Of a stretch of DNA of 58,392 nt, positions 4,256 to 34,973 are shown in pieces. The stretch's first letter is position 1, and each line of letters starts with the position of its first letter. The DNA is taken from positions 1 through 58,392 of the forward strand of contig JAUWYR010000012.1 in assembly GCA_030615745.1 (NCBI GenBank), read 5' to 3'. Source of the DNA: Candidatus Zixiibacteriota bacterium (lineage in GTDB: Bacteria; Zixibacteria; MSB-5A5; SM23-73-2). The position numbers and the translations under genes were made by a program. Under the pieces are notes generated by a model. The model was not told where the DNA came from. It was given only the letters and a program-made list of their open reading frames with translations, and did no database searches.

Positions 4256-4922
4256 AGATGTGTCAGGACCAGTCCTGACATCTTTTTCTAATACTTAAGG
4301 AATAGGAATTCCCGAAGCTAAAGGCATCCCACCTCTGGCGGGATGCAGGCAATCATAAATGATTGCACTCCACTTTTTAAGCGTCAGAAGGAAACTTCTG
4401 ACGCCACCATTAACGCAACCTGAAGGTTGCGGCTACCGATCCAAATCATAATTCTTAGATACTCTCTTTGGGTATCGGAGCCATAAAGGCTCCTCTACGC
4501 GTAGCAGCCTGCCCGGCTAGGGAGGGTTTATCCCTCTGCTGTGAACCATCAAATATCAACCATATACTGTTCTGTTCCCGACAGGTCCCCTGACCTTGTG
4601 CTGTTGCTGAATTTTGAATGCAGAAAGGAATTGCCGAATTACAAATTCGGCAACAACAATGGGAGTTTCTCAGTTTAATCCGCTAAATCCGTTGACCAAT
4701 TTGCTCTTGACTTCGGGTTTTGAGCGTATAATTTTTGGATAACAGAGGATAAGCACAGATTCGTATGAATGCTTCGCATAGAATCTGTGCCTACAAGTTG
4801 AAGGTTTTGATTGCTGAATTAGAAATTCAGCAACAATGAAGAGAAAGAATTTGTTATAGGGTGGGGACCCCCCCGCCAGAGGCGGGGGGATTTCGCTTCG
4901 CTCAACAAACCCCGCCCCTACA
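4256..4922. repeat. large block of palindromic repeat modules
   Basis: This gap has no convincing gene and is almost entirely hairpins. In order: TGTCAGGAC-CA-GTCCTGACA (4261-4280) followed by T's; a GGCATCC/GGATGC hairpin plus GCAATCATAAATGATTGC (4323-4373); GCGTCAGAAG/CTTCTGACGC (4381-4404); GCAACC-TGAA-GGTTGC (4415-4430), which opens a composite to 4540 with GGAGCC(ATAAA)GGCTCC, CTACGCGTAG and an inserted 14-base module (4508-4521); TTGCCGAATT/AATTCGGCAA (4631-4653); a GCACAGATTC/GAATCTGTGC hairpin (about 4754-4795); TTGCTGAATT/AATTCAGCAA (4811-4833); and a G-rich/C-rich element (4857-4922) ending 3 bases before the DUF1848 start codon. Related copies lie throughout the window. Confidence 0.85.
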
Positions 4923-7847: not shown

Positions 7848-8519
7848 TTCCCCCTCCTGATTTTAAGTTTTGATTTTTATGATATAACTTTTTTCTTAGT
7901 TTCATCACTCATCCCTGACCAAGAGGTCTTTCCGTGAGGTAAGAGTTGATGAAGTCTTCTATTTTTTTATCGACTTTTCCAGAGAAACGTTTAGTTAATC
8001 TCTTGCTCCTTGAACGCGTCTTGACGATAGTATGAGGATTTTTAAAGCTTTAAGGTTAAGTAAACTGCCAATCAGAGTTAAGAAGTTTTCTCTTTGCGTT
8101 CTCCGTTGGTCTTAAGACCAACGGATAGCAAAAACTCCCAACAGTCCTAAAAAAAATTACATCTTCTTCTTCAATTTCGCAGAGGGATAAACCCTCTGCT
8201 ACGCGTAGAGACCTGCCCGTCTGGGAGCCTTTTTGGCTCCAATCCCTTCAATCGTATGCCCACCTTGCCTCAAGGTGGGCCTTTTTCGCCCAGGTTGGGG
8301 GCAACTTGGACTACCGCTGGTAGGGGAGTCCCTTGTGGGCTCCCGAAGGACGGGAGGGGACAAGCCCCTCCTCTACGGCAATGAGTAGAGCTTTCATGGC
8401 TCCGATACCCAGGATTGTGTCTTTTGAGGCATCGGCAAAAGGATTTGCCGATGCACAAGCTTCGGGAATTCCTATTCCCGAAGCATCAAAGAAACAGATT
8501 ATTATAGCGAGATTATTTC
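7848..8519. repeat. gene-free gap with palindromic repeat modules
   Basis: I see no gene here. Contents: a relative of the in-ORF repeat (about 8027-8040); perfect palindrome CCGTTGGTC-TTAA-GACCAACGG (8103-8124); a reverse-oriented composite (8178-8240) with GCAGAGGG/CCCTCTGC, CTACGCGTAG, an inserted 14-base module (8212-8225) and a GGAGCC-type hairpin; GCCCACCTTG/CAAGGTGGGC (8258-8280); a GTAGGGGAG...CCTCCTCTAC element (8320-8377); GGCATCGGCA/TGCCGATGC (about 8428-8453) and GCTTCGGGAAT/ATTCCCGAAGC (8459-8485). Confidence 0.8.
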
Positions 8520-11309: not shown

Positions 11310-11422
11310 GTTTTATTGGAGTGTAAACCTTCAGGTTTACCAGGTTTGCAGGCACGAATTCATTCGTGCATTTTTTTGCACAGATAAAATCTGTGCCTAC
11401 AAAGCTTTGCACTCCAGAATAG
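11310..11422. repeat. two palindromic modules between ligA and polX
   Basis: GTAAACC-TTCA-GGTTTAC (11323-11340) has a GGAGTG flank on its left. Then a double-hairpin element (11345-11403): outer stem TTTG.AGGCAC with GTGCCT.CAAA, inner hairpin 1 GCACGAA-TTCA-TTCGTGC, a T-run, inner hairpin 2 GCACAGAT-AAA-ATCTGTGC. The same architecture with other stems is at 20866-20941 and 21933-21989. The block separates ligA from its downstream gene. Confidence 0.85.
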
Positions 11423-20865: not shown

Positions 20866-20941
20866 TTGTAGGTCAACCATCCCGAAGGGTGGTTGACAAC
20901 TCTTTTTGTCAAGCAGTCCTGTAGACATGCTTGACCTACAA
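20866..20941. repeat. double-hairpin palindromic element
   Basis: Outer stem TTGTAGGTC/GACCTACAA encloses hairpin 1 (GTCAACCA/TGGTTGAC), a CTTTTT spacer and hairpin 2 (GTCAAGCA/TGCTTGAC). The same plan with different stems is at 21933-21989 and 11345-11403. It cuts the 5' end of the HEPN-like gene. Confidence 0.85.
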
Positions 20942-20973
20942 GACTGATGTTTTGACGCCAAGATGAAAAAGCA

Positions 20974-21507
20974 TTACCCTGGTTCTGCGGCACCACCCAA
21001 AATGGAAAATAATAACACAAGGATTAACGTTTGAATGATCCAGCCGATCACGCAAACCCCTATAGCTCGTAATGTGCTCTTATAATCAAGGGCTTGCCTG
21101 ACCGCGACCACCATTGCCACCAGCATCCAAATTGAGGCGGCTAGAAAAACCATCCCTCCCAGCCCTGGAATGATACCTAATACTCGAATCAAGCCGGGAG
21201 AGCTCGAAAAGCCAATAGTGCGGAGCAATTCACCGAAATCTGCTTTGGTCTGTGGCTCTGGAAGGAATTTCGTGCCAATAAAGTAAGTGAGATAAGCCCA
21301 GACATACCACCCGATAAGGGCTGCGAGCGTGCCTATCAAAATCCCGCCAAGCCCTCCTCTTGCAATGCTTCCTACTCCAGCTGCTATACTGGAGAGAACA
21401 ACAATTCCCATGGCCTGACCCATTGCCCCCGTGTCAGCCTCAACCTCTTCGTACAGATGAACATCTATCTTAGCAGCACGAATAACACGATCCTTAAAAC
21501 TGGTCAT
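20974..21507 (-). CDS. Yip1 domain membrane protein
   Basis: The 177-aa protein has about four or five hydrophobic segments and matches Yip1-type bacterial proteins: 'AMGIVVLSSIAAGVGS', 'GTLAALIGWYVWAYLTYFIGTK', 'TKADFGELLRTIGFSSSPGLI', 'LAASIWMLVAMVVAVRQALDYKSTLRAIGVCVIGW'. SD CAGGAGAG precedes ATG 21507. Its codons are visibly more GC-rich than those of neighbours, possibly a recent arrival. Role unknown; homologues sit in many envelopes. Confidence 0.85.
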   Translation of the reverse strand: MTSFKDRVIRAAKIDVHLYEEVEADTGAMGQAMGIVVLSSIAAGVGSIARGGLGGILIGTLAALIGWYVWAYLTYFIGTKFLPEPQTKADFGELLRTIGFSSSPGLIRVLGIIPGLGGMVFLAASIWMLVAMVVAVRQALDYKSTLRAIGVCVIGWIIQTLILVLLFSILGGAAEPG

Positions 21508-21932
21508 TGTACTCTCCTGAATTTATTCAATAGTTCAAAAAATAATGTCCCCTTCAAACTGCCCCTCGAAATTTTAGATAACGATCAATAACCGCATTAT
21601 TGCGTTTATGTCTCTAAATTGGTGTTATATCCGTAGTATCTCTGTTATTTTTTAGTATATCCAAAACAATTCTTCGTTTGGTTCAAGTAAAGACTTTTTT
21701 TCTGCTTTACTTACCTCACAATTTTTTACCCATCAATTTTCCTCAACCTCCTGTCAATCCCTTGAGGTTTTTTTTCGTTTTATTAACCCAAAATTACCCT
21801 ATCCCCCTCCAAAAGTCAAGCACTTTTTCCTTTCATCCAGAGCTCTTTTTCATCTGAATTCATTCTTAAAACTGAGGTTTCACTTAAAGACTCCAGTACC
21901 GTTCCAATTAAATAATGCAAATTGTTCAGTTA
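21508..21932. other. gene-free AT-rich gap
   Basis: I see no convincing ORF, RNA gene or repeat in this stretch upstream of the Yip1 gene. It contains T-rich runs (about 21690-21800) and probably the Yip1 promoter, which I cannot place with confidence. Confidence 0.5.
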
Positions 21933-22210
21933 GTAGGTCGATTTTCTAAAATCGACATCTGTTTTGTCGAAATTGGAATTTCGACCTACTTTTTTTCTCA
22001 CAGAGTAGAGGAGGGGTTTATCCCCTCCCGACCACCAACGGGAGACCACCCTGGCCGGGCAGGCGAGGGTCTCCCCTACATATTAGGTTTATTTTGTTGG
22101 ATAAGCACTATTTGTTGCCAAATTTATAATTCAGCAATTCCTTAGCTGTATTTCAAATACAGCAACAACAGAGGACGATCTTTTACTGCATTAGAAATGC
22201 AGCAACAACA
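21933..22210. repeat. palindromic repeat block
   Basis: Double-hairpin element 21933-21989: outer GTAGGTC/GACCTAC, hairpin 1 GTCGATTTT-CT-AAAATCGAC, spacer ATCTGTTTT, hairpin 2 GTCGAAATT-GG-AATTTCGAC. Then GGAGGGG-TTTAT-CCCCTCC (about 22007-22028), a GGGAGACC/GGTCTCCC hairpin holding the 14-base module (22050-22063), and three hairpins with an AGCAAC-type right flank: TTGCCAAATT/ATTCAGCAA (22116-22137, imperfect), GCTGTATTT-C-AAATACAGC (22145-22163), CTGCATT-AGA-AATGCAG (22186-22202). Confidence 0.85.
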
Positions 22211-30334: not shown

Positions 30335-30660
30335 ATGGTAGCCACAGGCTTCAGCCTGTGAAATTACCTTTTAATTTAAGAGGAATAACGCAACCTGAAG
30401 GTTGCGGCTACCAATTCAAATCATAATTCTTAACCACATTCCTAAGGTAATGGAGCCGTGAAGGCTCCCTGGTCGGGCAGGCCAATTGCTGAACCGACAG
30501 AGAAAGAAATGCATCCCGCCAAAGGCGGGATGCAAGCAATCATAAATGATTGCACTCCGTTTAGGAAAAAGGAGGTCAAGTGGAGTCACAAAAGCTGGGG
30601 CAGGGGTTTAACCCCCTGCCCTAATAAAAAATGTCCAAAGGTCTTACTTTTGATTCTTGG
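30335..30660. repeat. palindromic repeat block
   Basis: CACAGGC-TTCA-GCCTGTG (30343-30360); a composite from GCAACC-TGAA-GGTTGC (30390-30405) through a shared linker to GGAGCC/GGCTCC and a 14-base module (30468-30481); CATCCCGCC/GGCGGGATG followed by GCAATCATAAATGATTGC (30513-30556); TGGGGCAGGGG-TTTAA-CCCCTGCCC (30596-30622). No gene is seen. The block lies between convergent genes. Confidence 0.85.
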
Positions 30661-34584: not shown

Positions 34585-34973
34585 TTCAAACCTGAAGGTT
34601 TGAGTTACATTTCCTGGCCGAACAGGCTGTAACTTGAGGCTTTGGTCATGATAATAAGTTGCGGCTACCAATTCAAATCATAGTTTTCTTACACAGCTAC
34701 GGGTATCGGAGCCATAAAGGCTCCTCTACGCGTAGCAGAAGGTTTATCCCTCTGCGAAATTGAATAACAAAATATTGTGCCCGCCAGGTCCCCTGACCTG
34801 GCGGAAATGTCTGGTCGGGTCAGGGGACTCGACCAGCACAGATGTGGTTTTCCCCAGTGCTGTCGGGAGTTACTTCCCGACAGATAATAGCGTCAGCCTG
34901 CCCGGCCAGGGGAGGAAACTCCTGACGCCACTATTTAAGGAATGCATCCCGCCAAAAGCGGGGTTTCACTCCA
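34585..34973. repeat. palindromic repeat block
   Basis: CAAACC-TGAA-GGTTTG (34587-34602); GTTACA/TGTAAC around a module (34613-34626); composite 34658-34756 with a shared linker, GGAGCC/GGCTCC, CTACGCGTAG and an AGAAGG-TTTAT-CCCTCT hairpin; CCCGCCAGGTC/GACCTGGCGG (about 34781-34804) with a paired GGTCGGGTC/GACTCGACC follow-up; CTGTCGGGAG/TCCCGACAG (about 34859-34882); GCGTCAG/CTGACGC with a module in its left arm (34897-34910); a truncated GCATCCCGCC element (34942-34972). Confidence 0.85.

Follow-up and report, generated by a model that had tools for sequence, protein, structure and literature searches.

GTAG-tagged double hairpins in a Candidatus Zixiibacteriota genome are very probably REPINs

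REPINs are also known as HH dimers or BIMEs. The RAYT is a domesticated transposase and, like the IS200/IS605 enzymes, an HUH tyrosine nuclease. Published accounts of REPINs already cover the GTAG tag and the length of the stems, their complementary variants, the head-to-head dimers and the flanking of RAYT genes (Bertels & Rainey 2011, PMC3116915; Di Nocera et al. 2013, PMC3733652). In E. coli, BIMEs pair y with z REPs, as y-z1 and y-z2 (Corneloup et al. 2021, PMC8266576). RAYT/TnpA-REP biochemistry has established that the GTAG tag and stem features of the single-stranded hairpin are recognised, with cleavage nearby (PMC8266576).

We analysed a stretch of 58,392 nucleotides from Candidatus Zixiibacteriota (GCA_030615745.1, contig JAUWYR010000012.1), referred to throughout as the window, which comes from a 74-contig draft genome that is 98.6% complete. 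An initial annotation had drawn attention to three double-hairpin elements and had known of no described family with this plan. Re-reading of the sequence bore out the coordinates and stems: each element consists of a tag, a hairpin, a spacer, a second hairpin and the inverted tag, in a GTAG ... CTAC frame. The claim of an undescribed plan fell, as GTAG-tagged head-to-head REP dimers with complementary stem variants are described in PMC3733652. We are highly confident that the double hairpins are REPINs, that is, head-to-head GTAG-tagged REP hairpins with a short AT-rich spacer, and, as members of the REP/BIME family, presumably non-autonomous mobile DNA; matching transposases adjoin matching hairpins. 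The features of the window are listed below, with the hairpins of the complete elements in brackets and with E values for matches to covariance models R1 and R2.

20868-20939, REPIN A, GTCAA class, noted initially as the element at 20866: GTAG-[GTCAACCATCCCGAAGGGTGGTTGAC]-AACTCTTTTT-[GTCAAGCAGTCCTGTAGACATGCTTGAC]-CTAC
20868..20897, plus strand, REP half 1 of REPIN A: GTAG and the hairpin GTCAACCA-T-CCC.GAA.GGG-TGGTTGAC; R2 match, E 9.6e-10
20898..20907, no strand, spacer of REPIN A, AACTCTTTTT
20908..20939, minus strand, inverted REP half 2 of REPIN A: GTAG and GTCAAGCATGTCTACAGGACTGCTTGAC; R2 match, E 2.2e-6
21933-21989, REPIN B, GTCGA class: GTAG-[GTCGATTTTCTAAAATCGAC]-ATCTGTTTT-[GTCGAAATTGGAATTTCGAC]-CTAC
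21933..21956, plus strand, REP half 1 of REPIN B, of the TTTT type; R1 match, E 3.3e-7
21966..21989, minus strand, REP half 2 of REPIN B, of the AAATT type; R1 match, E 1.4e-7
11348-11400, REPIN C, GCAC class, noted initially as 11345-11403: GCAG-[GCACGAATTCATTCGTGC]-ATTTTTTT-[GCACAGATAAAATCTGTGC]-CTAC
11317..11416, GGAGT...ACTCC outer inverted-repeat element, 15-nt arms, 87% complementary, 70 nt apart
22005..22079, fourth pair, GGGAG class: GTAG-A-GGAGGGG ... GGGAGACC ... CTAC, one tag-foot junction degenerate
4753..4794, minus strand, singleton REP, GCAC class, with an enlarged hairpin loop, found by the GTAG-hairpin scan

The left tag of REPIN C has decayed by mutation, reading GCAG instead of GTAG, and the element is probably nested within the GGAGT...ACTCC double hairpin at 11317-11416, which the initial annotation had passed over. 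The GGAGT class also flanks a RAYT (L053) in the sister genome G001 (LJUW01, Zixibacteria SM23_73_2). The pair at 22005-22079, just downstream of REPIN B, was absent from the initial annotation; its right half was recovered by the GTAG-hairpin scan, and its fold z was -3.15. What had been recorded as a half copy at 4754-4797 is not a broken half but one complete GTAG-tagged hairpin on the minus strand. More adjacent perfect hairpins, lacking the GTAG tag (GCATCCCGCC..., GCGTCAGAAG..., CCGCCAGGTCCCCTGACC...), occur at 4324-4431, 8429-8484, 30510-30553 and 34781-34836, and are probably other REP-like classes.

Folded as single-stranded DNA, the three elements gave z values of about -4.9 to -6.0, and none of 200 shuffles folded as well. 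REPINs A and C adopted a two-hairpin fold. For REPIN B, one long interrupted hairpin was preferred over two separate ones, since base pairing is possible between its two feet (GTAGGTCGA/TCGACCTAC), so that the two-hairpin drawing is not the sole possible structure. Hairpins followed on the plus strand by a T-rich spacer could be read as intrinsic transcription terminators with a T-run. At all three elements, however, the long ORFs on either side are both encoded by the minus strand, which places the T-run on the wrong strand for those transcripts, and neither the GTAG/CTAC frame nor a second hairpin would be expected of a terminator. We consider this reading extremely improbable.

The transposases also support the REPIN assignment. 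Three Y1 transposases were found in the window's genome, all above the cut-off of NCBIfam NF047646, REP_Tyr_transpos (REP-associated tyrosine transposase), with scores of 145, 103 and 128 bits against a cut-off of 80. The RAYT motifs HFH/HLH (the HUH motif, H-x-H) and YIHxNP (the catalytic Tyr region) were read in their sequences. The single PDB match of the L011 protein was 4ER8, E. coli TnpA-REP, at 2e-16. Each of the three genes is bordered by its own hairpin class; these flanks, and those of one RAYT of G001, are as follows.

RAYT L011, on contig C65 of the window's genome: GTCAA hairpins on both sides, the class of the element at 20866
RAYT on contig C17 of the window's genome: GTCAGGAG on both sides
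RAYT L010, on contig C25 of the window's genome: GTTG-CTGCAT-type hairpins around the gene
RAYT L048, in G001: complete GTCGA REPINs on both sides, the second half of the upstream copy being decayed; the class of the element at 21933

Short GTTG-tagged palindromes, TTGTTGCTGAATT...AATTCAGCAACAA, often repeated, were also observed at 4600-4830 and 22110-22210 of the window, and are of the same class as those around the distant RAYT L010. These palindromes have the look of a second REP superfamily, one whose tag is not GTAG.

Identity was 44-52% among the RAYTs associated with GTCAA, GTCGA and GTCAG, and 23-26% between these and the GTTG one. The relatedness of the RAYTs thus tracks the REP foot, a pattern in the compared sequences that is consistent with co-evolution. 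RAYTs were found in 18 of the 20 relatives searched, at 2-15 per genome. Neither the GTCGA nor the GCAC class had a cognate RAYT among those found in the genome of the window, where both look orphaned; loss, a gap in the 98.6% complete assembly and trans-mobilisation are possible explanations.

Covariance models identified further copies in the genome and its relatives. The model for the GTCGA class (R1) matched 57 halves in the window's genome and 40 in G001. That for the GTCAA class (R2) matched 29 halves in the window's genome, which has a GTCAA-flanked RAYT, versus 0 in G001, where the class occurs in none of the RAYT flanks read. At E <= 0.01, matches were obtained in 15 of 20 relatives for GTCGA and in 12 of 20 for GTCAA. 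Cells in the alignments were paired in 97.2% (GTCGA) and 98.0% (GTCAA) of cases, percentages that are somewhat flattering, since the way in which the sequences were collected imposed the outer GTC/GAC and the alignment omitted a small number of 24-mers that were plainly unpaired or unrelated, so that the information comes from the inner pairs only. The covariation score was 0.495 versus 0.136 in shuffled alignments for GTCGA, and 0.538 versus 0.215 for GTCAA, and the signal was lost when the partner was slid by 1 to 3 columns. In the GTCAA alignment, the unpaired column T13 was invariant. These pair counts support the compensated stem changes and the selection for structure that had been proposed at first sight.

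Strong stem covariation in an intergenic location is also what a structured RNA family, such as a riboswitch, sRNA or attenuator, would show under selection for RNA structure. Against this, no Rfam family reached the gathering score anywhere in the window. Copies are dispersed, at tens per class per genome, and are absent from orthologous sites in G001. The 5′ tag is moreover exactly the RAYT recognition tag, and the same hairpins flank RAYT genes. A structured RNA family is therefore very unlikely, although transcribed REPs could secondarily affect mRNA, as is known for REPs.

The abundance and placement of the hairpins were determined in an unbiased sample of 427 kb of the window's genome, made up of the window and 20 further stretches. 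GTAG ranked first of the 256 tetramers immediately upstream of hairpins (4.1% versus an average of 0.6%), and 65 GTAG hairpins had stems of at least 7 bp, versus 4 in each of three shuffles. Extrapolation from the sample gives an estimate of about 350 GTAG hairpins genome-wide. Only 9 of the 65 lay within ORFs of at least 100 aa, which make up 84% of the sample. Across the genome, the strict pattern GTAGGTCRA-N30-60-TYGACCTAC occurred 16 times, versus 0 for the reversed control.

In the sample there were 13 close head-to-head pairs, each with a common 4-base foot and a spacer of 6-16 bp, and close pairs on the same foot were head-to-head in 13 of 13 cases. The other neighbours amounted to only 2 tail-to-tail and 5 tandem arrangements, all joining different feet. 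Every one of the 23 pairs examined in the window's genome was heterotypic, carrying two different inner stems, and 18 of them stood on the same 4-base foot. Among pairs from other organisms, 53 of 58 were heterotypic and 5 homotypic. A homotypic pair would amount to one long perfect palindrome; heterotypic pairing would favour two hairpins.

An assembly artefact or chimeric contigs could be suspected in a draft of this kind. The copies are spread over many contigs, however, and differ in their flanks, and the same classes are present in SM23_73_2, which was assembled independently, as well as in further published genomes, which leaves this explanation with practically no weight.

Comparison of orthologous gaps with G001 revealed differences in occupancy. 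In the polX-ligA gap, the GCAC element REPIN C is present in the window and absent from the G001 gap, where another hairpin sits; the GCAC class is present at other places in G001 (L228, L229). Two further orthologous gaps were full of hairpin repeats in the window's genome and contained none in G001. These differences in presence and absence show turnover of the elements. Synteny with G001 was unusable at 20866 and 21933, where the flanking genes are on different contigs, and at the L009 RAYT site, where contigs break. An intergenic region some 1 kb long (L033, 17100-18260, contig C17) holds at least seven hairpins of mixed classes, namely CGTC, GGGAG, GGTCCCCTGACC, GTGCAGGAATT, GCCGCAACC and TGTCGGGAG, with none of these in the orthologous G001 gap; it is a probable insertion hot spot.

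The stems themselves fall into few types. In the window's genome, the GTCGA class comprised 12 distinct hairpins among 30 instances. The GTCGAGATT/GTCGATTTT stem variants were also found in Poribacteria records (L057, L067, L068, L083, L100, L103 and others), in REPINs near-identical to the window's class. The TTTT/AGATT types, and 24-mers that match exactly, for example GTCGATTTTCCAAAATCGAC, likewise occurred in other bacteria, Poribacteria records included. As the pattern search beyond the genome returns chance matches, with only 42 of the 83 matches checked (in loci L057-L136) having a pair of hairpins 7 bp or longer, isolated matches in organisms such as Saccharothrix and Rickettsia did not enter the REPIN counts. 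Since Poribacteria belong to a different phylum, the occurrence of these stem types there points to either horizontal transfer or deep conservation.

The initial annotation had offered two causes for the compensated stems, selection for structure or a copying mechanism that rebuilds palindromes. The former is upheld by the covariation. In the latter, templated repair or strand switching would perfect each stem and give each copy a new one; nearly all stems do pair perfectly, however much their inner letters differ, and half-changed intermediates are rare. But the variants are few and repeated, and some occur in other bacteria, which fits the copying of fixed types with selection for pairing. 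A few recurrent stem types in many identical copies, shared with Poribacteria records, argue for inheritance and copying, not for rebuilding at each copy. Palindrome rebuilding is not needed and is very unlikely as the source of the stems; quasi-palindrome correction may contribute occasionally.

Under the REPIN reading, and by analogy with the published TnpA-REP biochemistry, the RAYT would recognise the hairpin in single-stranded form by its GTAG tag together with features of the stem or foot, would cleave near the bound hairpin, and would by the same analogy spread REPIN copies to intergenic sites. The inner stem letters would be partly free provided that the stem pairs, which would yield compensated stems without any special copying mechanism. 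A more specific proposal is that REPINs of this lineage are obligate heterodimers. The tag and usually the foot would be common, being read by the RAYT, and the inner stems would have to differ, so as to form two hairpins and not one long cruciform. Classes lacking a RAYT would be kept in trans by related RAYTs, and classes would have passed horizontally between Zixibacteria and Poribacteria. We put this combination forward tentatively, as a possibility that is much more likely to fail than to hold.

A literature search found no published description of REPs in Zixibacteria, and this lineage and its REP classes are probably undescribed. The elements share with the REPINs of Bertels & Rainey (2011, PMC3116915) the inverted REP pair, short spacer, hairpins and RAYT link, as well as common compensatory changes and a mostly extragenic location. 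Those REPINs were reported for Pseudomonas fluorescens and other RAYT-bearing genomes, and are drawn as one long hairpin, whereas here two-hairpin folds with different inner stems prevail. With the GTAG REP superfamily, as presented in the text of Di Nocera et al. (2013, PMC3733652), they have in common the terminal GTAG, stems of 6-13 bp, frequent loops of 2-4 nt, dimers arranged head to head, stem residues that alternate in complementary fashion, the presence of several families per genome, REP-flanked RAYT genes and dimers that have now and then inserted into other palindromes. The phyla mentioned in that text include neither Zixibacteria nor Poribacteria. The classes found here have GTCGA, GTCAA, GTCAG, GCAC, CGTC, GGGAG and CAGAG feet.

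What is new is the lineage, the coexistence in it of many REP classes, and stem variants that Poribacteria apparently share. A supposed unknown is thereby placed in a known class, to which a lineage rich in REPINs and RAYTs is added, useful for testing co-evolution of RAYT specificity with the hairpin feet. Modest leads are offered by the heterotypic pairing and by the stem types apparently held in common with Poribacteria. Comparison with the BIME/TnpA-REP system of E. coli (4ER8; PMC8266576) was made by architecture. Both systems have heterotypic pairs of GTAG-tagged hairpins and homologous transposases with conserved HUH and tyrosine regions. The invariant unpaired T13 of the GTCAA class is reminiscent of the bulged group 2 REPs, and the GTCGA class, a perfect palindrome without a bulge, resembles the second (group 3) REP type (PMC8266576).
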